From positions 310,001 to 374,000 of the forward strand of contig NZ_JABFTX010000002.1 in the NCBI RefSeq assembly GCF_021404305.1: a stretch of 64,000 bases of DNA, read 5' to 3'. The stretch is from Billgrantia ethanolica (lineage in GTDB: Bacteria; Pseudomonadota; Gammaproteobacteria; Pseudomonadales; Halomonadaceae). Position numbers and translations under genes: made by a program. The notes under the pieces were generated by a model. It ran no database searches. It was not told where the DNA came from and was given only the letters and a program-made list of their open reading frames with translations. Below are positions 19,040 to 29,179 of the stretch, piece by piece (within the stretch, counting starts at the first letter, position 1; each line of letters begins with the position of its first letter).

Positions 19040-20245
19040 ATGCCCAGCCCCGCGTCTCGCCAGCTCCCACTGGCCGGTCTCAAGGTTCTCGAACTCGGTC
19101 AGCTGATCGCCGGCCCCTTCGCCACCAAACTGCTGGGCGAGTTCGGCGCCGACGTGATCAAGATCGAGCCGCCGGGCACGGGTGACCCCCTTCGCAAGTG
19201 GCGAATCATCGAGGACGGTACCTCGCTGTGGTGGCATGTTCAGAGCCGCACCAAGCGCTCCATGACGCTGGACCTGCGCAGCCAGGAGGGCCAGGACATG
19301 GTGCGCCGGTTGGCCACCGAAGCCGACGTGGTGGTGGAAAATTTCCGCCCCGGCACGCTCGAGGGCTGGGGGCTCGGCTACGAGGCGCTGGCCGAGCACA
19401 ACCCCGGGCTGATCATGGTGCGCGTCTCCGGCTTCGGCCAGAGCGGCCCCTACCGCGACAAGCCCGGCTTCGGGGTGATCGGCGAGGCCATGGGCGGGCT
19501 GCGCTATCTCACCGGCCAGCCCGGTGAGCCCTCGGTTCGGGTCGGCGTGAGCATCGGCGATTCGCTGTCGGCGCTCTATGCGGTGATCGGCACCCTGCTG
19601 GCGCTGCAGGAGCGCGCCCGCAGCGGCCTCGGCCAGGAGATCGACGTAGCGCTGTACGAGTCCGTGTTCGCCATGATGGAGAGCCTGCTGCCCGAATACG
19701 ACGCTATCGGCGAGATACGCGAGCCCAGCGGCAGCGCCTTGCCGGGCATCACGCCCTCCAACGCCTACCGTACCCGCCACGGCGACTTCGTCTTGATTGC
19801 CGGCAACGGCGACAGCATCTTCAAGCGCCTGATGGGCGTGATCGGCCGCCGCGACCTGGCCGAGGACCCCGGGCTGGCCCACAACGACGGTCGGGCGCGG
19901 CGCGCCGAGGAGATCGATGCCGCCATCGAGGCCTGGACCTGCCAGCGCGACCGCGACGCCATCCTGGCCGCCCTGGACGACGCCCGGGTGCCTTGTGGCT
20001 ATCCCTATACCGCCGCCGATATCGCCAGCGACCCGCACTATCTGGCGCGGGAGATGCTTCAGACCATCACCCGGCCCAACGGCAAGCCGCTCAAGGTGCC
20101 CGGCGTGCTGCCGCGGCTCAGCGCCACCCCCGGGCGTCTGGGCAATGGCGGCCCGGCGCTGGGGCAGCACACCGAGGAGGTGCTCGACGAGCTGGGCATC
20201 GACAGCGAGACCCGCGCCAAACTGCGCGCTGCGGGCATCATCTGA
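19040..20245 (+). CDS. CaiB/BaiF-type (class III) CoA-transferase
   Basis: A 401-residue class III CoA-transferase, moving CoA from a donor such as succinyl-CoA to a carboxylic acid. LKVLELGQLIAGPFATKLLGEFGADVIKIE is the N-terminal family signature. The catalytic Asp is in the segment QEIDVALYESVFAMMESL, and RVSGFGQSGPYRDKPGFGVIGEAMGG follows the family pattern. The ATG at 19040 has AGGAGG 7 bases upstream; the frame is open further up only across the divergent LysR gene. It is 24 bases ahead of the lyase gene. The pairing implies an acid is activated to its CoA ester, then cleaved. Confidence 0.93.
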   Translation: MPSPASRQLPLAGLKVLELGQLIAGPFATKLLGEFGADVIKIEPPGTGDPLRKWRIIEDGTSLWWHVQSRTKRSMTLDLRSQEGQDMVRRLATEADVVVENFRPGTLEGWGLGYEALAEHNPGLIMVRVSGFGQSGPYRDKPGFGVIGEAMGGLRYLTGQPGEPSVRVGVSIGDSLSALYAVIGTLLALQERARSGLGQEIDVALYESVFAMMESLLPEYDAIGEIREPSGSALPGITPSNAYRTRHGDFVLIAGNGDSIFKRLMGVIGRRDLAEDPGLAHNDGRARRAEEIDAAIEAWTCQRDRDAILAALDDARVPCGYPYTAADIASDPHYLAREMLQTITRPNGKPLKVPGVLPRLSATPGRLGNGGPALGQHTEEVLDELGIDSETRAKLRAAGII

Positions 20246-20269
20246 CCCCCGACCGAAACCGGACCCATC

Positions 20270-21196
20270 ATGACCCAACTGCAGATCAATGAGGTGGCGC
20301 CAAGAGACGGCTTCCAGATCGAGGCCACCTTCGTGCCCACCGCGGACAAGATTCGTCTGATCGACGCGCTCTCCGCCACCGGGCTGGCGCGCATCGAGGC
20401 CACCTCCTTCGTCTCGCCCAAGGCGATCCCCAACCTGCGCGATGCGGCCGAGGTCGTGAGCGGCATCCAGCGCCGTGACGACGTGGGCATCACCGTACTG
20501 GTGCCCAACGTCAAAGGGCTGGAGCGGGCGCTGGAGTGCCGGGTGGATGAGGTCAACCTGGTGATGTCGGCGAGCGATTCCCATGGCCAGGCCAACCTGC
20601 GCATGACGCCGGAGCAGTCCCTCGAGCAGTTCGCCGCCATCGTCAAGGGGCTGCGTGGCGATTCCCGCGGCAGCAATGTCTTCGTCAACGCCTCGCTCTC
20701 GACCAGCTTCGGCTGCCCGTTCGAGGGCGAGGTGGCCGAGGCGCGTGTGCTCGAACTGGTGGAGCGCCAGCTGGCGCTGGGCGTGCAGGGGGTGACGCTG
20801 TGCGACACCACCGGCATGGCCAACCCGGCCCAGGTGGCGCGACTCTGCGAGGCGGCGCAGGCGCGCTTCCCCGACGTTCCCTTCACCCTGCACTTCCACA
20901 ATACCCGCGGCATGGGGCTGGCCAATGCCCTGGCCGCCTGGCAGGCGGGCATCGTGCGCTTCGATGCCTCGCTGGGCGGGCTGGGGGGCTGCCCCTACGC
21001 CCCCGGTGCCACCGGCAATGTTTGTACCGAAGATCTGGTGCACATGTTCGAGCAGATGGGCGTCTCGACCGGCGTCGATCTGGACGCGCTGCTGGCGGCC
21101 TCCGCCATGCTGCCGGGGCTGGTGGGTCACGATACCCCCGGGCAGGTGGTGAAGGCCGGCAAGTCGGATCGGCGCTATTCGATGCCGGCCCGCTGA
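20270..21196 (+). CDS. Hydroxymethylglutaryl-CoA lyase family protein
   Basis: A 308-residue TIM-barrel lyase of the DRE-TIM group, cleaving a 3-hydroxyacyl-CoA such as HMG-CoA to acetyl-CoA and a keto acid. Hallmarks are present: EVAPRDGFQIE (catalytic Arg-Asp), NASLSTSFGCPFEGEV, LCDTTGMANP, the metal-binding HFHNTRG, and GLGGCPYAPGATGN with the active-site Cys. With a CoA-transferase upstream and an aconitase-like isomerase downstream, the substrate may be a citramalyl- or alkyl-malyl-type CoA rather than HMG-CoA; this is inference. No leucine-catabolism genes are adjacent. The 3' end lies in a 25-bp tandem duplication that includes the stop. Confidence 0.88.
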   Translation: MTQLQINEVAPRDGFQIEATFVPTADKIRLIDALSATGLARIEATSFVSPKAIPNLRDAAEVVSGIQRRDDVGITVLVPNVKGLERALECRVDEVNLVMSASDSHGQANLRMTPEQSLEQFAAIVKGLRGDSRGSNVFVNASLSTSFGCPFEGEVAEARVLELVERQLALGVQGVTLCDTTGMANPAQVARLCEAAQARFPDVPFTLHFHNTRGMGLANALAAWQAGIVRFDASLGGLGGCPYAPGATGNVCTEDLVHMFEQMGVSTGVDLDALLAASAMLPGLVGHDTPGQVVKAGKSDRRYSMPAR

Positions 21197-21247
21197 CACC
21201 GGCGCAATGCCGGCCCGCTGATACCGGCGCCATGCCGGTCCGCCGAG
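21181..21247. repeat. 25-bp tandem repeat across the lyase stop codon
   Basis: Units 21181-21205 and 21206-21230 differ at 2 of 25 positions, and a diverged partial third unit runs to 21247. Each full unit carries the codons for the last residues and a TGA, so the stop has been copied. It fills the gap before the aconitase-like gene. Confidence 0.75.
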
Positions 21248-21287
21248 GCTGACGCCCCAGACTCACCGTGACAGGAGACCAACAACA

Positions 21288-23273
21288 ATGACGGCACCAT
21301 CCACGCCCCTCAACCTGGCCCAGCAGCTGATCCGCGACCATCTCGTCGACGGCGAGATGACGCCGGGCAGCGAGATCGCTCTGCGCATCGATCAGGCTCT
21401 GCTGCAAGACGTGCTCGGCACCCTGGTGATGCTCGAGCTCGAAGCCATGGGGCTCGACCGGGTGAAGACCCAGCCCAGCGTGCAGTACATCGACCATGGC
21501 CTGGTCCAGGCCGACAACCTCAACGCCGAAACCTACCTATTTCTCAAGAGTGCCTGCGAGCGCTTCGGCGTGTGGTACTCCGGGCCGGGCAACGGCATCA
21601 GCCATCCGGTGCACATGGAGCACTTCGGCATTCCCGGCCAGTCCATCGTCGGCTGCGACAGCCACACCACCGCGGCCGGCTCGCTGGGCATGCTGGCCAT
21701 CGGCGCCGGTGGCATCGAAGTCGCCATGGCCATGGCCGGGGAGCCGCTCTACCTGACCATGCCCGAGATCTGGGGCATTCGCTTGGAGGGCAGCCTGCCC
21801 GACTGGGTCTCGGCCAAGGATGCGGTTCTCGAACTGCTGCGGCGTCACGGCGTAGCTGGCGGCAAGAACACCATCATCGAATACTACGGTCCGGGCCTGG
21901 CGAACCTCTCCGCCATGGATCGCCACGTACTGGCCAACATGGGCACCGAGATGGGAGCCACCGCCACGGTTTTTCCCTGCGACGAGGAGACCCGGCGCTT
22001 CCTCGCGTCCCGCGGCCGCGAGGCGGACTGGAAGCCGCTGGCGGCCGAGTCCGGTTGCAGCTACGACCGTGAAGAGGTGCTCGACCTGTCGTCTCTCGAG
22101 CCGTTGATCGCGCTACCCTCCAGCCCCGACAAGGTGGTGCCGGTGCGCGAGGTGGTCGGTGAGCCGCTGCACCAGGCCTATATCGGCTCCTCGGGCAATC
22201 CCGGCTATCGCGACTTTGCGGTGGTGGCCGAGATGGTCCGCGGGCGCACCGTGGCCGATGGCGTCTCGCTGGATATCAATCCATCCTCGCGCCAGGTGCT
22301 GGCAACGCTGATCCGCGACGACTATCTCGCCGATCTGGTAGCCAGCGGGGCGCGATTGCACCAGACCGGCTGCAACGGCTGTATCGGCATGGGCCAGGCC
22401 CCGGCGGTGGGGCGCAACAGCCTGCGCACCGTGCCGCGCAACTTTCCGGGGCGCTCCGGCACCCGTGAGGACAGCGTGTTTTTGTGCAGCCCGGAGACCG
22501 CCACCGCCTCGGCGCTGGCCGGCACCATCGCCGACCCGCGCAGCCTCGACATGCCCTATCCGCGCATCGCCGAGCCCGCGCAGATGGTGGTCAACCGCGA
22601 TGTGTTCGTGGCGCCGCTGCCGTTGGCCGAGGCGCGCCTCAAGCCGCTGCAGAAGACCGACAACACCCCGGCCCTGCCGGAGCTCGCCGCGCTGCCCGAC
22701 ACCCTCGAGGTGCCGGTGCTGCTGGTAACCGGCGACAACATTTCCACCGACGACATCATGCCGGCCGGGCAGCGGGTCATGCCCTACTGGAGCAGCGTCT
22801 ACGCCTCGGCGCCGTTCACCTTCGAGGCGGTGGATGCCGACTACGCGCGCCGCGCCGAGAACACGCGCACGCTGGGCGGCCACGCCATCGTTGGGGGGCA
22901 CAACTACGGCCAGGGCTCGAGCCGCGAGAACGCTGCCCTGGTACCCCGGTACCTCGGCCTGCAGGCGGTACTGGCCAAGAGCTTCGCGCGTATTCACTGG
23001 CAGAACCTGATCTGCTTCGGCGCGCTGCCGCTGAGCTTCATCGATGCACAGGATTACGACCGCCTCGAGCAGGGCGACAGCCTGGTGATTCACGATCTGC
23101 ATGCCCAGCTTGCCGCCGGGGCCGAACTCACCGCCGAGGTGGTGGGCAAGGGCGCGTTTCGTCTGCACCATGGCCTGACTCCGCGTCAGCGTGAGCTGCT
23201 GGCCTGTGGCGGGGTCATCAACCATATTCGTCGTGCTAAAGGGGCCTCGGCGGGAGCGGCAGATGCATCGTGA
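21288..23273 (+). CDS. Aconitase-family hydratase (short, Aquifex-type)
   Basis: A 661-residue aconitase-superfamily protein with both large and swivelling domains in one chain: VGCDSHTTAAGSLG, TGCNGCIGMGQAPAVG and GGHNYGQGSSRENAALVPRYLG. It would isomerise a hydroxy di- or tricarboxylic acid through the unsaturated acid. The place where aconitases carry the first [4Fe-4S] cysteine (GSCTN) reads I-G-S-S-G-N, so only the later C-x-x-C ligands remain. I think this is shared by a subfamily, but cannot confirm it. Its place behind a CoA-transferase and an HMGL-type lyase argues for a dedicated catabolic step, not the Krebs cycle. Confidence 0.88.
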   Translation: MTAPSTPLNLAQQLIRDHLVDGEMTPGSEIALRIDQALLQDVLGTLVMLELEAMGLDRVKTQPSVQYIDHGLVQADNLNAETYLFLKSACERFGVWYSGPGNGISHPVHMEHFGIPGQSIVGCDSHTTAAGSLGMLAIGAGGIEVAMAMAGEPLYLTMPEIWGIRLEGSLPDWVSAKDAVLELLRRHGVAGGKNTIIEYYGPGLANLSAMDRHVLANMGTEMGATATVFPCDEETRRFLASRGREADWKPLAAESGCSYDREEVLDLSSLEPLIALPSSPDKVVPVREVVGEPLHQAYIGSSGNPGYRDFAVVAEMVRGRTVADGVSLDINPSSRQVLATLIRDDYLADLVASGARLHQTGCNGCIGMGQAPAVGRNSLRTVPRNFPGRSGTREDSVFLCSPETATASALAGTIADPRSLDMPYPRIAEPAQMVVNRDVFVAPLPLAEARLKPLQKTDNTPALPELAALPDTLEVPVLLVTGDNISTDDIMPAGQRVMPYWSSVYASAPFTFEAVDADYARRAENTRTLGGHAIVGGHNYGQGSSRENAALVPRYLGLQAVLAKSFARIHWQNLICFGALPLSFIDAQDYDRLEQGDSLVIHDLHAQLAAGAELTAEVVGKGAFRLHHGLTPRQRELLACGGVINHIRRAKGASAGAADAS

Positions 23274-23393
23274 TCGTAAGGTTGGTATACCGAAGGGTCG
23301 CGTTGGCCGGGGCCATTGATGCTTGTGGCCGGCCGCATTGCGCTGTCGCCAATACATCGATCATGGCGTAACGCAAGGGAATAGGATGATGTA

Positions 23394-23442
23394 GAATAAT
23401 CGATTATTCCCTGTTGACAGATTTTTACCGCTTGGCTAGGCT
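23394..23442 (+). promoter_or_regulatory. AT palindrome and promoter for the DUF2294-like gene
   Basis: A perfect 16-bp palindrome, GAATAATCGATTATTC (23394-23409), lies 4 bases upstream of TTGACA (23414-23419). TAGGCT follows after 17 bases. This is a good -35/-10 pair with an operator-like site abutting it. It stands out against the GC-rich surroundings. Confidence 0.6.
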
Positions 23443-23511
23443 GGACCTTGCATGAGAGTGGTATACCAGATGTCCTCTGGAAGCCAGCCGGATCGAGATG
23501 AGGTCGACCCC

Positions 23512-23925
23512 ATGAGCGCCTTGAGCAGCGACTTCTCGAGCATAGGTTCCACACATGCCGATACCTCGGGTATCGGTTCGCTGGGCCAGCTCAAGCAGGA
23601 ACTGATCAAGGACTACAACGAGGTCAACCATCGCATCTTCGGCATCGGCGTGGTGCGTCAGAAGGTGGACATCGCGGGCGACAGGATTCTCGTCATCGCC
23701 TTGCACAAACGGGTACCGGCGCTTGGTTACCTCAATGTGCTCAACAGCAACGTGAGCGAGCTGGCCGACCACTATCTCATCAAGGGATTCAAGCACGAGT
23801 TCAAGCAGCTTCTGGTGGCGAAGTATGGCTTCGAGGTCCTGTCCATCTTCAAGGACTACGACGCCGAAGCCGAGCTTTCCGCCACGGTGGTGGTACTGAA
23901 GAAGGATGTGCGCGACTACCTCTGA
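23512..23925 (+). CDS. DUF2294 (MpsC-like) domain protein, tentative
   Basis: A 137-residue soluble protein of unknown function. The pattern from residue ~25 (LKQELIKDYNEVNHRIFGIGVVRQKVDIAGDRILVIAL, then FKQLLVAKYGFEVLSIFKDYD and VVVLKKDV) resembles the DUF2294/MpsC-like family. It has the same order of helix, G-x-G turn, strands and helix, but I cannot run a profile. There is no signal peptide or membrane segment. The ATG at 23512 has GAGGT 8 bases upstream; ATGs at 23452 and 23470 would add an unstructured tail. It has its own promoter and is followed by the nif3-type leader. Confidence 0.6.
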   Translation: MSALSSDFSSIGSTHADTSGIGSLGQLKQELIKDYNEVNHRIFGIGVVRQKVDIAGDRILVIALHKRVPALGYLNVLNSNVSELADHYLIKGFKHEFKQLLVAKYGFEVLSIFKDYDAEAELSATVVVLKKDVRDYL

Positions 23926-24064
23926 CGCTCAGCGTCGGGCATGGTCCGCAACTCCGCAGGCAAGACTGACTGGTGATGTGAACTCGCCCTGAGAAGGCGA
24001 GTGCTCGAGACCGTCAGCGCAGTTTGAGGCATTACGCCTCTCGCTGTGCTGGCGGTCTTTTTTT
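23924..24064 (+). terminator. Structured leader ending in an intrinsic terminator before the NIF3-like gene
   Basis: Three hairpins follow the DUF2294-like gene: GACGC/GCGTC (23924-23936), CTCGCC-N7-GGCGAG (23983-24001), and a 10-bp stem GACCGTCAGC/GCTGGCGGTC (24009-24057) enclosing GAGGC/GCCTC and ending in seven T (24058-24064). Only 24 bases separate the T-tract from the next ATG, too few for a promoter. So the downstream operon is read through this terminator or controlled by it. I do not recognise a known riboswitch class. Confidence 0.65.
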
Positions 24065-24088
24065 ATGGCTGATGCGAGGAGAACAACG

Positions 24089-25111
24089 ATGGCCAAGGTA
24101 GCGGATATCGTCAATGCGATGAGCGTGATCACGGGCGGCAGGACGGTGTCGTCCATGGAGGAGGTGAAGAGCGGCAAGCACCCCTTCGTGATCATGAAAT
24201 CGTCGGGAATCTACGGCAAGGAGGTGCTGGAGATCCCGGGGCTGATCTACGGCGACCCCAACAAGGAAGTGAAGAAGGTCGCCGTGTGCATGACCATGAC
24301 GGAGCTGGTGATCGAGCTGGCCGGGGCCACCGGGGTGGATGCCGTGGTGGCGCATCACCCCATTGCCGATGCCGCCAGCTGCGGCGGGGTGACGCTGAAG
24401 AACTATCTCGATCTCTACGACGTGGCGGGGCTGGAGTGTCACGAGGCGTTTCACGGCCTGCACCCGGGCATCCCCTTCCTGCACGGGCACAAGGTGGAGA
24501 AGGGCAGCATCTCCTACGGTGGCGTTCACGGCAACATCATGTTCGTGGGGCGTGCGCTGCCGGGCGTAGCCACCCTGGGCGACATCCTCGACCGCCTGGA
24601 CGGCTACATGGCGCTGGATCAGGATCGCGCGCTGCTGGCGGAGGAGCGGCTGGTGCGCGGTATCGACGAGATCCGCGAAACCAGCGTGGAGACCCGCGGC
24701 TTCATCCATCTGGGCGAGCGTGACAGTCCGGTCGAGCACATCCTGCACATCTTTCCGCACACCGGCTTCTCGCCGGAGAACCTGCGTCAGGCGGTGGCCG
24801 AGAACCCCGGCGTGGATACCGTGCTGGCCTCGATCAGCCGCGTCTATGCCGGCCACGCGCTGATCGAGACGGCCCGGGAGCTGGGCCTCAACTTCCTGGT
24901 CGGCAACTGCCACGTGATGGAGATCCTCGAGAACGGCCTGCCCCTGGCCTACGCCCTCGACGAGCTGCTCGAAGGCGTGGAAGTGGTGCTGTTCCGCGAC
25001 CGGGTCACTTCGACGCCGGTGCGCCGGGTGGGCAACGAGGCGATGCAGGCCTACGCCCGGGAGATGTCGGCGAGTCACCTGCTGGGCAAGCATGCATTGA
25101 GCGAGACATGA
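24089..25111 (+). CDS. NIF3-like dinuclear metal centre protein
   Basis: A 340-residue protein of the NIF3/YbgI superfamily. The metal-binding HH of VDAVVAHHPIAD and a later His/Glu region are typical, but the order differs from the GTP cyclohydrolase-like YbgI, and this longer form is often found beside membrane gate proteins. The biochemical role is not established. The start at 24089 has AGGAG at 8-base spacing; an upstream ATG at 24065 lies in the terminator tail. It is followed after 75 bases by the gate-domain gene on the same strand, probably one operon. Confidence 0.8.
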   Translation: MAKVADIVNAMSVITGGRTVSSMEEVKSGKHPFVIMKSSGIYGKEVLEIPGLIYGDPNKEVKKVAVCMTMTELVIELAGATGVDAVVAHHPIADAASCGGVTLKNYLDLYDVAGLECHEAFHGLHPGIPFLHGHKVEKGSISYGGVHGNIMFVGRALPGVATLGDILDRLDGYMALDQDRALLAEERLVRGIDEIRETSVETRGFIHLGERDSPVEHILHIFPHTGFSPENLRQAVAENPGVDTVLASISRVYAGHALIETARELGLNFLVGNCHVMEILENGLPLAYALDELLEGVEVVLFRDRVTSTPVRRVGNEAMQAYAREMSASHLLGKHALSET

Positions 25112-25146
25112 CGGCGCCACTTGCCGTTATGCTCTCCCCAAGCGCC

Positions 25147-25174
25147 CATTCAATAACAGTCATTCAATAACAAT
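25147..25174. repeat. 14-bp tandem duplication before the gate-domain gene
   Basis: CATTCAATAACAGT (25147-25160) is followed directly by CATTCAATAACAAT (25161-25174), ending just upstream of the ribosome binding site at about 25175. Confidence 0.7.
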
Positions 25175-25186
25175 AGAGGCACTGTC

Positions 25187-26308
25187 ATGAAAACCACCGT
25201 GACTACCCCTGAAGACTCCAGCCCGGACAAGAAGGAACTCGGGCTACCGGCCAACAAGCGGGCGTGGAAACGCATCGAAGTGGTCGGCATCGTGCTGCTG
25301 TGCATCTGCCTGTTGATGCTGCTGCTCTCGCCCACCAGCCTCTCGGGGCTGTTCAACGCCATTCTCAACTCCGTGCGACCGGTGGTGGTAGACGTCTTCC
25401 TCACCGGCGTGGTCGGCACGGCCATCATCGTCAGTGTGATCATCGGCCGACTGCTGGAGCGACTGGGCTTCACCGATGCTCTGGTGCGCATCTTCGTGCC
25501 CGCCATGAAGCTGCTGGGCGTCAACCCGGCGGTGATCATCCCGAGCGTCTACAACATCTTCGGCGACATCAACGCGGCGGGTAAGATCTCCGGCCCGATC
25601 CTCAAGAGGGCGGGGGCCACCAAGGACGAGCAGAAGCTGGCCGTGGCCACCATGGTGCAGTCGCAGCAGTCGTTCTCCACCTTCATGCTGGGGCTGATGG
25701 CGCTGACCTTTGCCGGGGTCAACGTCTTTGCCGTGGTGCTGCTGGCGGTGTTCCTGCCGCTGGTGATCGTGCCGCTGATCCTGTCGAAAACGCTCTATCG
25801 TGACGTCAAGCGGGTCGAGATCGGTCATCTGCCGACCTTCACGCCCGAGCGCGACTTCATGCCCACGCTGTTCAGCGCCGCGCGGGAAGGCGTGGAGCTG
25901 CTGCTGCTGATCCTGATTCCCGCCGTGGCGCTGGTCTTCGCGGTGATCGGTGTGCTCGACTACATCGGCGTCTGGGCGCCGATCGAGACGGGCCTGGGCA
26001 AGGTCATGCTGCTGTTCAACATCCATCCGGAAACCGGCGTGCTGTCGGTGCTGGTGAGCCCGACGCTGGCCATGGGCCAGTTGCAGAGCATCGCTGCCGA
26101 TCTCGATCCCTCGCTGGTGGTAGGGTCGTTCGTGCTGGCTTCCTCTGGCCTGCCGCTCTCCGCCGTGTTCGGCCAGGTGCCGGTGGTATGGGCGGAGAGT
26201 TCCGACCTTTCCGAGCGTGAGGCCATGGGCGCTGCGGTGCTGGGCATCGTCATGCGCCTGGGTACCGCCTTCCTGATCGCTTTCTTCGTCACGCCGCTGG
26301 TGGTGTGA
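25187..26308 (+). CDS. Gate-domain (nucleoside recognition, CD0519-type) membrane protein
   Basis: A 373-residue inner-membrane protein with about nine or ten hydrophobic segments. The region VVVDVFLTGVVGTAIIVSVI to NPAVIIPSVYNIFGDINAAGKISGPIL resembles the Gate/nucleoside-recognition domain found in nucleoside transporters and spore-maturation proteins. It carries a charged 30-residue N-terminal cytosolic tail. It is next to the NIF3-like gene, a pairing I recall from other genomes, suggesting a transport or metal-linked function that is not established. GAGG 9 bases upstream of the ATG. Confidence 0.75.
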   Translation: MKTTVTTPEDSSPDKKELGLPANKRAWKRIEVVGIVLLCICLLMLLLSPTSLSGLFNAILNSVRPVVVDVFLTGVVGTAIIVSVIIGRLLERLGFTDALVRIFVPAMKLLGVNPAVIIPSVYNIFGDINAAGKISGPILKRAGATKDEQKLAVATMVQSQQSFSTFMLGLMALTFAGVNVFAVVLLAVFLPLVIVPLILSKTLYRDVKRVEIGHLPTFTPERDFMPTLFSAAREGVELLLLILIPAVALVFAVIGVLDYIGVWAPIETGLGKVMLLFNIHPETGVLSVLVSPTLAMGQLQSIAADLDPSLVVGSFVLASSGLPLSAVFGQVPVVWAESSDLSEREAMGAAVLGIVMRLGTAFLIAFFVTPLVV

Positions 26309-26320
26309 TTCGCTCATACG

Positions 26321-26349
26321 GGTGCCACTGCCAGCATGGTGGTGGCACC
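26321..26349 (+). terminator. Hairpin after the gate-domain gene
   Basis: GGTGCCAC pairs with GTGGCACC around 13 bases, 12 bases beyond the stop. The following bases are not T-rich, so it is less convincing than the hairpin at 26392. Confidence 0.4.
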
Positions 26350-26391
26350 GTTGTCTGCACATGTCAGCCTGATCGCGCAATGCGAATTTTT

Positions 26392-26413
26392 CCGAATCCT
26401 TCTTCGGTTTTTT
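26392..26413 (+). terminator. Intrinsic terminator
   Basis: CCGAA-N6-TTCGG followed by six T, 84 bases beyond the gate-domain stop. It separates that operon from the TctCAB genes. The stem is only 5 bp. The AT-richer 26414-26590 probably holds the tctC promoter. Confidence 0.55.
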
Positions 26414-26601
26414 GCGACTTTTAGGAAAAACATCTTTAGAGCGTTAAGGTTATTTGCGGGTTTTTCCGCGGAATCGACAATACAATCCTTGAAACGGACA
26501 AGTCCGATCGTCGCTTGTTGCATAGGGTTAAAGGGAGGACTGTCGCTCTGACTCATGAGCGGTGGTATTTCCATAAGCAACAATAACGATGGAGCTTCGA
26601 C

Positions 26602-27576
26602 ATGTCCTTCAAGATGACAAAAATGGCGGTCGCCGTCAGTGCGGCCATTCTCACGTTTTCAGCAGGAAATTCCCTGGCCGCGGAGCCCAGTCTGGGCGAC
26701 GATCCCATCCGTATCGTGATGCCCTATGGCGCCGGCGGCAGCACCGACATCACGGCTCGCATCATTGCGGCCAACGCCGCCGAGCACTGCGGCAGTCGGA
26801 TCGATGTGGTCAGCATGCCCGGGGCGGGAGGCATGGAAGGGCTGCAGTTCGTGGCCGATGCCAACCCCAACGGCCATACCATTCTCATGGCGGACTACTC
26901 CGCCACCATCACCCAGACACTCACCGAGGACACCCCCTGGGAGGTCGAGGACTGGGTGCCCATCGTGCACCTCACCGATTGGAAACCCACCGTCTACGCC
27001 AAGGCCGACCACGATATCCAGTCCATCGAGGATTGGATCGAGCTGGCCGAGGCCGAGCCCAATACCCTGGTATTCGGCCACGCGGATCCGCTCAGCCTGG
27101 TGCACCTGCCGCTGGTGCTGCTCGAGCAGGAAACCGGCATCCAGAACATACATCTACCGACCACCGGCGGCGGCGAGACCCGCACCATGATCCTGGGTGG
27201 CCATATCGACCTGGGGATGACGCTGCCGCCTTCCATCGTCTCCAACGTCAACGACGGTGAGGTCACCGCCATCGGGGTCTTTGCCGACGAGCGCTCGGAC
27301 GTGCTGCCGGACGTGCCTACCTTCAAGGAGGCCGGTTACGACGTGTCGTTCGAGGCGCCGCTGCTGGTCTACACCTTCTCGTCGGTACCGGAGTCGATTC
27401 AGCAACAGCTCTCCGAGTGCATCATGACTGGGCTCGAAAGCGATACCGCTCAGGCCATGGGACGTCAGGCCTCGGCAGGGCTGGAGAATGTCCAGGGACT
27501 CGAGAGCGCCCAGGCCGTCTATCGCGACACCACCGAACGCGTCAGGGAAGTGCTCGCCGCCATCGGCGAAGGCTGA
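26602..27576 (+). CDS. tctC: Tripartite tricarboxylate transporter substrate-binding protein
   Basis: A 324-residue periplasmic receptor of the TctC/Bug family, binding a di- or tricarboxylate for the TctAB permease. The signal peptide ends near SLA-AEP. The opening RIVMPYGAGGSTDITARIIA and GAGGMEGLQFVADANPNGHTIL follow the family's ligand-contact pattern. First gene of tctC-tctA-tctB. A GC-rich hairpin separates it from tctA, which fits higher expression of the receptor. The ligand cannot be read from sequence; the nearby malonyl-CoA synthetase gene makes malonate one candidate. Confidence 0.9.
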   Translation: MSFKMTKMAVAVSAAILTFSAGNSLAAEPSLGDDPIRIVMPYGAGGSTDITARIIAANAAEHCGSRIDVVSMPGAGGMEGLQFVADANPNGHTILMADYSATITQTLTEDTPWEVEDWVPIVHLTDWKPTVYAKADHDIQSIEDWIELAEAEPNTLVFGHADPLSLVHLPLVLLEQETGIQNIHLPTTGGGETRTMILGGHIDLGMTLPPSIVSNVNDGEVTAIGVFADERSDVLPDVPTFKEAGYDVSFEAPLLVYTFSSVPESIQQQLSECIMTGLESDTAQAMGRQASAGLENVQGLESAQAVYRDTTERVREVLAAIGEG

Positions 27577-27602
27577 ACCTCTCAGGTTGACGCTCCATGA
27601 GC

Positions 27603-27622
27603 GGGGCCGGCTCACCGGCCCC
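27603..27622 (+). promoter_or_regulatory. Intercistronic hairpin between tctC and tctA
   Basis: GGGGCCGG-CTCA-CCGGCCCC, an 8-bp perfect stem with a 4-base loop and no T-tract. It is likely an mRNA-stabilising or partial attenuation element after the receptor gene. Confidence 0.6.
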
Positions 27623-27664
27623 GTCGTGGCGTCGTGAACGTTCCAGCCTCGTGGGAGAGTGCGG

Positions 27665-29179
27665 ATGTTGGATATCGTCATCGAAGCCAGTGCGCTGGCC
27701 TTCCATCCCTATGTCATGATGTACGTTTTCCTCGGGGTTCTGCTTGGCATTACCCTGGGGGCAATACCCGGCTTGTCGGGGGACATGGCCATTGCCCTGC
27801 TGTTGCCCTTCGTGTTCTTTCTCGAACCCGCGCTGGCCATGGGCCTGCTGGTAGGCATCTACAAGGGCGGACTGTTCGGCGGTTCCATCTCTGCCATCTC
27901 CTTTGGCGTGCCGGGCACGCCCGGGGCCGCGGCGACCAGCATCGACGGCTACCAGGCCAAGCTCCAGGGCAAACCGAGCAAGGCCTTGCACACCGCCCTC
28001 TACTCCTCGGTCATCGGCGATACCACCAGCGATCTGGTGCTGATCTTCATCGCCGTACCGCTGGCGGCGGTGGCGTTGACCTTCGGGCCTATCGAGTTTT
28101 TTGCCCTCTATGCCTTCTCGCTGATTCTGATCGCTGCCTTGAGCCAGGGCATGGTGGCCAAGGGCCTGGCGGTGGCCGCCATTGGCGTGCTGCTGGCGAT
28201 GATCGGGCGTGATCCCATTACCGGGGCCTCTCGTCTCACCTTCGGCATGCCCGGTCTCTCCGGAGGGCTGAGTCTGATTCCGGTGCTGATCGGGATATTC
28301 GCGATTTCGGAGGTGGTGTTCCAGGGCGCCAAGCTGTGGCGGCGCAAGGTCGACAAGCTGATGGACGACGTGGCCGAGCAGGCCAGCCTGCTGCAGGGCT
28401 ACGACATCAGCAAGGACAAGCTGACCTGGGCCGAGTTCAAGTCGACCCTCAAGGCCACCTACATCGGGGCCGCGGTGGGTACCTTCATCGGCGCGCTGCC
28501 GGGGGCAGGGCAGTCGCTGGCGGCTTTCATGAGCTACGGCCTGGCCCAGCGTTTTTCACGCCGCTCCGAGGAGTTCGGCAAGGGCTCGCTGGAGGGCATC
28601 GCCAGCGCCGAGTCCGGCAACAGCGCGACCTGCGGCTCCACCTTCATCCCGCTGTTCGCCTTCGGCATTCCCGGCAGTGCCACCGCGGCACTGTTCGGTG
28701 CGGCGTTCATCCTGATGGGCATGACGCCGGGGCCGAGCCTGCTCACCGACCACACGGCAATCATCTATGCGCTGTTCTTCACGCTGATCTTCGCCAACCT
28801 GGTGAACCTGCTGCTGGGCAAGATCCTGCTGCCCTATTACTCCCGGATCGCCATGATCCAGCCCGGCTTCATGATCCCGGCGGTCTTCATTCTGGCGATC
28901 GTCGGTACCTATGCCGCGAACAATTCGGTGATGGACGTGTGGGTGCTGCTGTTCGCCGGCTTGCTCGGTGTGACGCTGCGGCTGATGGGCTTCCCGCTGG
29001 CGCCGCTGGTGCTTGGCTTCATCATCGGGCCCGGGGCCGAACGGGCGCTGCGTCAATCGATGATCATGGGCGGAGGCGACTGGTGGGTGCTGGTCAAGAG
29101 CCCCATCGCCATCGGCTTCTACATCGCCGCCTTTGCGCTGATCATGCTATTCACCTTCGCCCTGAGGGCCAGGAAATGA
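27665..29179 (+). CDS. tctA: Tripartite tricarboxylate transporter large permease
   Basis: A 504-residue inner-membrane permease of the TctA family, with about ten to twelve hydrophobic segments. Signatures are LGAIPGLSGDMAIALLLPFVF, GVPGTPGAAATSIDGY, and the repeat-like IGALPGAGQSLAAFMSYGLAQ followed by GSLEGIASAESGNSATCGSTFIPLFAFGIPGSATAALFG. The ATG at 27665 is favoured over a GTG at 27659 because GGAGAG sits 6 bases upstream. The stop overlaps tctB's ATG. Confidence 0.93.
   Translation: MLDIVIEASALAFHPYVMMYVFLGVLLGITLGAIPGLSGDMAIALLLPFVFFLEPALAMGLLVGIYKGGLFGGSISAISFGVPGTPGAAATSIDGYQAKLQGKPSKALHTALYSSVIGDTTSDLVLIFIAVPLAAVALTFGPIEFFALYAFSLILIAALSQGMVAKGLAVAAIGVLLAMIGRDPITGASRLTFGMPGLSGGLSLIPVLIGIFAISEVVFQGAKLWRRKVDKLMDDVAEQASLLQGYDISKDKLTWAEFKSTLKATYIGAAVGTFIGALPGAGQSLAAFMSYGLAQRFSRRSEEFGKGSLEGIASAESGNSATCGSTFIPLFAFGIPGSATAALFGAAFILMGMTPGPSLLTDHTAIIYALFFTLIFANLVNLLLGKILLPYYSRIAMIQPGFMIPAVFILAIVGTYAANNSVMDVWVLLFAGLLGVTLRLMGFPLAPLVLGFIIGPGAERALRQSMIMGGGDWWVLVKSPIAIGFYIAAFALIMLFTFALRARK

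Follow-up and report, generated by a model that had tools for sequence, protein, structure and literature searches.

A candidate riboswitch-type element ahead of a NIF3/DUF34-like gene in Billgrantia ethanolica, other Proteobacteria, and some Bacilli

The window analyzed here is a stretch of 64,000 nt from Billgrantia ethanolica (contig NZ_JABFTX010000002.1, positions 310,001-374,000, forward strand). Homologous loci are designated by L-numbers (L010, L064 and so on), and R1, R2, and R3 are RNA models built from their leaders: R1 from 16 leaders, R2 from 24, and R3 from those of Proteobacteria only. The locus comprises a DUF2294/MpsC-like gene, a NIF3/DUF34-like gene, and a gene for a Gate-domain membrane protein, with a terminator-bearing RNA element between the first 2 (Table 1).

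Table 1. Coordinates of the features at the locus, numbered from the first base of the window
Feature	Position	Strand	Remark
Palindrome AATAATCGATTATT	23395-23408	.	Directly upstream of the -35 box
Proposed operon promoter	23414-23442	+	TTGACA (23414-23419), 17 nt, TAGGCT (23437-23442); no experiment
Operator-like palindrome TGGTATACCA	23459-23468	.	Downstream of the proposed promoter
DUF2294/MpsC-like gene	23512-23925	+	Frame with KDYD motif, ending at the RNA
P1 5' strand (antiterminator strand)	23965-23974	+	Bulged U at 23971
Internal loop, 5' side, GAUGUGAA	23975-23982	+	Column counts over leaders
P2 hairpin	23983-24001	+	CUC/GAG base conserved, upper part variable
Internal loop, 3' side, UGCUCGAG	24002-24009	+	Column counts over leaders
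Shared strand ACCGTCAGC	24010-24018	+	P1 3' strand and terminator 5' arm
Intrinsic terminator	24007-24064	+	22 bp with internal loop; seven T at 24058-24064
Probable ribosome-binding site of the NIF3-like gene, AGGAG	24077-24081	+	Read in the sequence
NIF3/DUF34-like gene, thought to be controlled	24089-25111	+	Pfam PF01784, E 1.5e-8; AlphaFold model
Gate-domain membrane protein gene, thought to be controlled	25187-26308	+	Pfam PF07670

The gene downstream of the RNA belongs to the NIF3/DUF34 family, since both the Pfam cut-off (35 bits against 23.4 for PF01784, the best stretch being 50-92 only) and the NIF3 fold are met. The AlphaFold model of its product has a mean pLDDT of 83.1 and matched 20 structures at E <= 0.001, with E-values down to 5.4e-10; many of these structures are of named NIF3 proteins. 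The protein does not reach the TIGR00486 equivalog cut-off (33.1 versus 130.55 bits). The DUF34 review describes the family as ubiquitous and widely annotated from one study (PMC8469502). The Gate-domain protein lies just above its family threshold (E 6.7e-7, 30.2 bits, cut-off 29.6). The window's DUF2294-like protein scores 13.1 bits against Pfam MpsC (PF10057), below the cut-off of 23, while its relatives in L072 and L087 reach 23.3 and 28.7 bits and those in L023 and L033 gave no match to this family. These proteins have invariant charged residues. A small alpha/beta fold is predicted for the window's protein (mean pLDDT 86.7); its matches are weak, and some of them are to ribosomal proteins. 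Neither structure nor PDB-sequence searches gave anything significant, with no PDB match at E <= 0.001 and a best one, to a designed protein, at 0.008.

The terminator ahead of the NIF3-like gene is predicted to fold into 17 bp, an internal loop, and 5 bp at -41.8 kcal/mol, which none of 200 dinucleotide shuffles equaled (shuffled mean -18.3, z -8.04), and the leader up to 24064 has a predicted fold with z -5.87. The original prediction had placed here a 10-bp stem with seven T; the T tract is where it was claimed to be, but the stem is considerably longer. As that prediction also held, the tract ends 24 bases before the NIF3-like ATG, as read in the sequence, and the predicted fold has 2 hairpins ahead of the terminator, at 23924-23936 and 23982-24002. 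By eye, the first of these is not common to leaders beyond the Billgrantia type, while the second makes up the inner stem of the conserved element described below. Only 23964-24064 belongs to the element, so that the regulatory region takes up part, but not all, of the leader for which it had been proposed.

A simple sigma-70 scan of positions 20000-29000 found a single site, at 26597, where 1.2 were expected, and none between the terminator and the NIF3-like ATG, where the original prediction had seen no room for a promoter. A promoter-like stretch is instead conserved ahead of the DUF2294-like gene. In an alignment of 10 loci, from which L018 and L019 were dropped, the -35 box reads TTGACA in 9 and TTGATA in L022, and a TTGGCTAG-like stretch surrounds the -10 position. 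The proposed promoter at 23414 falls below the threshold of the simple scan, and its -10 box is weak. The operon is nevertheless most likely transcribed from this putative site, and because the conserved stretch precedes the DUF2294-like gene, the RNA element is probably intercistronic, lying between operon genes one and two, rather than a 5' leader. The reading of the region as an attenuator or riboswitch platform is largely upheld, while its placement as a 5' leader probably has to be given up.

Two palindromes flank this putative promoter. TGGTATACCA is identical in all 10 aligned loci, Marinobacter included; the window holds 2 sites at no more than 1 mismatch against 0.32 expected, and at least 2 occurred in 4 of 100 shuffles. 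The one-mismatch copy lies further upstream, at 23283-23292. A GntR-FCD regulator is a possible candidate for binding TGGTATACCA as an operator; GntR-FCD genes are next to the operon in L022 and L048 and lie at a distance of about 3 kb from it in L072, and L087 has a GntR gene. AATAATCGATTATT is found in the 8 Billgrantia-type loci of the alignment (one base off in L011) and is absent from L021 and L022.

The main feature of the region, which the original prediction missed, is that in the aligned leaders the 5' arm of the terminator doubles as the 3' strand of an alternative, conserved helix. Pairing of this arm (24010-24018) with an upstream strand (23965-23974) closes a compact stem-loop, 23964-24019, in which P1 joins GUUGAC[U]GGU (ACUGAC[U]GGU in the window) to ACCGUCAGC. 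The core GACUGGY..UGAACUC..GAGnGC..RCCGUCAG is common to Billgrantia, Marinobacter, Alcaligenaceae, and Aneurinibacillus. Within the internal loop, U23979, G23980, and A23981 are conserved in 21, 22, and 22 of the 24 leaders, respectively, and G24003 and C24004 in all 24. Four loci, L023-L026, have a recognizable core with a long insert in P2 and an A x C mismatch at one P1 pair. A match at E 0.0013 on the opposite strand of the window reflects the self-complementarity of the element.

P1 and the terminator are mutually exclusive, since both use 24010-24018. Across 24 leaders, 206 of the 216 positions of this nine-base strand are paired in P1 and 206 of 216 in the terminator; for the window the figures are 8 of 9 and 9 of 9. 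Partition functions computed for the growing transcript predict that P1 forms first and the terminator later in every one of these leaders. P1 of the window has a predicted probability of 0.97 when transcription has reached 24019 and of 0.73-0.99 up to 24046, falling to 0 by 24052, which places the hand-over at 24049-24052. When the upstream 60 nt were shuffled, an equally good P1 partner arose in 18% of cases for the window and in 0.3-46% for other leaders. Dual use in a single leader is therefore not decisive, and its weight comes from recurrence. In the predicted folds, the expression platform and the aptamer helix exclude each other, as expected of a riboswitch.

These observations bear on another account of the hairpin, namely that it is the ordinary terminator of the DUF2294-like gene, with NIF3 expressed by leaky read-through or from its own promoter and the conservation incidental. 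The position directly 3' of that gene and the textbook appearance of the terminator are what this account would predict. It has no need, however, of the upstream strand, the bulged U, or the UGA..GC internal loop that Proteobacteria and Bacilli have in common, nor of one strand kept complementary to 2 partners, and the simple scan found no sigma-70-like site after the hairpin. The conserved internal-loop bases of the aligned leaders are more than a plain terminator would need. We consider this account very improbable, and we rejected a plain terminator as the sole explanation because of the conserved alternative helix and internal loop.

Homologous leaders without conserved structure would have refuted the original prediction. 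In a MAFFT alignment of 16 leaders, P1 instead pairs in 97.2% of cells, and in 7 of the 15 pairs of P1 and P2 both partners change. The numbers of paired cells, doubly changed pairs, and doubly changed cells and the covariation were each reached in 0 of 500 shuffles, and the number of pair types in 2 of 500. Sliding one partner by 1-3 columns lowered pairing from 92.4% to 22-52%. Two-sided changes include A-U to G-C in P1 of L027, L030, and L036 and U-A to C-G at the top of P1 in 5 Bacilli. The alignment of 24 leaders was fitted to the RNA model and so leans towards it; here covariation was 0.252 versus 0.158 +/- 0.013 in shuffles, the number of doubly changed pairs was reached in 7 of 500, and 2 P1 pairs were broken in 5 and 4 of the 24 leaders. 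With Proteobacteria alone, paired cells, doubly changed cells, and covariation exceeded all shuffles, while the numbers of doubly changed pairs (5) and pair types (14) were each reached in 39 of 500. The riboswitch criterion of a conserved, covarying structured RNA before genes is met on this comparative evidence, more weakly so when only Proteobacteria are considered.

A scan of genome contigs with the NIF3 protein yielded 28 loci, and the order DUF2294-like gene, RNA, NIF3 gene recurs in Halomonadaceae, Marinobacter, Alcaligenaceae, and some Bacilli. In all 34 leaders examined (24 from Proteobacteria and 10 from Bacilli), the RNA follows directly on a frame with the KDYD motif of the DUF2294-like proteins. 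At E < 1e-7, R1 recognizes the window together with 20 of the 28 loci, of which 15 had been used to train it and the remaining 5 are close relatives. Neither R1 nor R2 scores L023-L026 as matches, and L032-L035 have no match to an RNA model. In 201 genomes of the window's family, R1 gave 15 matches at E <= 0.01, of which 13 are NIF3 leaders (the window and 12 loci of the protein scan) and 2 were taken as chance. The 9 genomes behind the distant loci gave 5 leaders at E <= 1.3e-7 and 3 weak matches at E 0.12-0.69, also taken as chance. R1 further matched 5 of 15 genomes in the order of Aneurinibacillus, each time before NIF3, and 6 of 398 in the class Bacilli, 5 before NIF3 and one taken as chance. 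Eight of the Bacilli leaders (L060-L067; 4 from the order scan and 4 from the class scan) were new to R1, all of them before NIF3. The large scans evaluate only a few candidates in each genome and let true copies escape; the class-wide one is insensitive, having missed G252, which the order scan found. Scans with R2 matched 3 of 39, 3 of 250, and 1 of 42 genomes, all at known NIF3 leaders. At E 1e-20, this NIF3 protein occurs in 1 of 369 gammaproteobacterial genomes, the window's own. In the class of the L032 genome, 1 of 214 has it, namely the L032 genome, and plasmids gave no relative of it.

This NIF3 subfamily is present in 12 of the 398 Bacilli genomes. R2 detects the RNA in 10 of them; nine of those leaders had served to train it, and L083 (E 1.1e-5) had not. 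R3 was run on the 10 Bacilli leaders and found 9 of them at E <= 0.8. Three stand above the best chance match, 3 more lie at E <= 0.0022 and 3 at E 0.5-0.8, and L083 is unmatched. The best chance match is L068, which was included because R1 had picked it, and R3 also gave a match in L088 far from the leader (E 0.0061). Since R3 separates few Bacilli leaders, the link between Proteobacteria and Bacilli rests jointly on the core, the structure, and the gene position.

Candidates for other gene contexts were rejected. L050, L051, L057, L058, L059, and L068 are weak R1 matches within predicted open frames or overlapping their ends and were put down to chance. L050 (E 5.5e-5) outscores 2 true leaders, L063 (E 1.6e-4) and L067 (E 1.9e-4), so that scores of about 30 bits cannot be trusted without context. 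Over 954 genome scans, many of them at low sensitivity, model matches at E < 1e-6 all lie before this NIF3 gene.

The Bacilli leaders also bear on whether the ribosome, as part of a leader-peptide mechanism or on leaving the DUF2294-like gene, could govern termination by translational attenuation. The stop codon of the DUF2294-like gene falls inside the element in 7 of the 10 (L031, L069-L071, L073, L074, and L076), where a terminating ribosome could thus disturb P1, and in the window a short frame that begins with ATG ends at P1. Among the proteobacterial leaders (24), however, this stop codon precedes the element by 14-125 nt. Nor is the short frame a common feature: judged by eye, the window and L010 differ in its frame and its end, so that the conserved short ORF expected of a leader-peptide attenuator is missing. 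We find this explanation hardly tenable.

The 2 Bacilli loci without an R2 match, L087 and L088, have a DUF2294-like gene, a more distant NIF3 gene, and a gene for an NMT1-type substrate-binding protein, which is followed by an ABC ATPase-like frame (the Pfam test was made on L087 only). Their leader, AGC[A]GGUGAUAAAGAYCUC..RCCGCU followed by a terminator, folds to the same outline of bulged P1, internal loop, and P2, with the same predicted hand-over. As there are only 2 such sequences, this leader is a lead rather than an established variant class. The NIF3 genes of Micromonospora (L033 5690-6000, L034 5690-6000, and L035 1345-1655) are preceded by a different leader, which is about 250 nt long. 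It has a mean column identity of 91% over 3 species and a TTGACA..TATATA promoter-like stretch ahead of it, the L033 copy has no Rfam match, and it is possibly another leader RNA.

Rfam 15 gave no match at gathering score in the window, and at the same thresholds 14 loci gave only 2 tRNAs, both in L030. Permissive Rfam searches of the L010 and L064 leaders reached best E-values of 0.052 and 0.19, below gathering scores. Among transcriptional ON riboswitches, the pbuE adenine, crcB fluoride, and ZTP types have a P1 that overlaps the terminator. The element resembles these in its compact, aptamer-like fold, in the P1 3' strand that serves as the terminator 5' arm, and in its predicted ON logic, but it has no Rfam match and no known ligand and probably lies between operon genes, an arrangement that is less common than a riboswitch in a 5' leader. 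Like the orphan riboswitch candidates that have come from comparative genomics, it is a covarying RNA before enzyme and transporter genes of unknown role; unlike them, it is seen in one gene context only. We did not find the element in print, as far as open-access literature goes, and a term search of the main text of the DUF34 review gave no mention of riboswitch, DUF2294, or Gate (PMC8469502).

We consider it likely that the element is an orphan riboswitch-type RNA, an aptamer-like structure fused to a terminator that acts as a genetic ON switch inside an operon. Comparison of the leaders supports 2 alternative helices, a conserved internal loop, conservation in 2 phyla, and a constant gene position, while direct binding of a ligand, the ON direction, and the identity of the ligand are inferred. 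Transcription would start before the DUF2294-like gene, and once 23964-24019 had been transcribed, P1 and P2 would form around the conserved internal loop. Without a signal, the longer terminator hairpin would capture the 3' strand of P1 and RNA polymerase would stop at the seven T. A signal bound to the internal loop would hold P1 in place and block the terminator, so that NIF3 and Gate would be transcribed. We infer that the most likely signal is a small molecule or an ion connected with the substrate on which NIF3 and the transporter act.

The compact fold and the conserved internal loop favor a small-molecule ligand over a protein. A protein effector is not excluded, since the DUF2294-like gene stands directly upstream in each of the 34 leaders examined. 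Attenuators of the PyrR, LicT, and ANTAR types depend on a protein and set an alternative helix against a terminator, as this element would, and a protein, perhaps the DUF2294-like product with its invariant charged residues and weak structural matches to, among others, ribosomal proteins, might bind the P1/P2 RNA and control termination. By eye, however, we noticed neither the paired hexaloop hairpins nor the binding-site sequences known from those systems, and the element, with a conserved internal loop and a variable apical loop, looks like a small aptamer. The absence of a significant PDB match likewise gives the DUF2294-like protein no support as the binder. In L033, moreover, a DUF2294-like gene (40% identical to that of the window) lies divergently beside the NIF3 gene without an RNA model match, so that the link between the 2 genes is independent of the RNA. 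Control by a protein is thus unlikely, though it remains an alternative.

For the riboswitch-type reading, the ligand is not named by the neighborhood. All confident matches lie in one operon type, so no second gene context hints at the ligand, and the neighboring genes name none because they differ between genomes. Guesses from creatininase, aspartate dehydrogenase, ferredoxin reductase, HbpS, and aldehyde dehydrogenase were considered and none was decided. In one Bacilli locus (L072 8144-15295), the NIF3 operon is accompanied by creatininase, aspartate dehydrogenase, ferredoxin, and GntR genes and by chromate-transporter-like, HbpS, and aldehyde dehydrogenase genes. Some of these genes are again found close to the operon in L022, L023, and L027, and the set is a possible catabolic cluster.

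A more specific proposal is that the RNA represents a new riboswitch class sensing a compound handled by NIF3/DUF34, with a second variant, distinct in sequence, in which an NMT1-type ABC importer replaces the Gate permease and the type of RNA follows the type of transporter; we regard this as evenly poised between right and wrong. A switch inside the operon would separate a first gene that is always made from later genes that are made conditionally. With an RNA sensor on a NIF3-transporter operon in 2 phyla, the ligand may point to what the operon handles, and if a new riboswitch class is indeed present, finding its ligand would show which substrate this NIF3 subfamily has.
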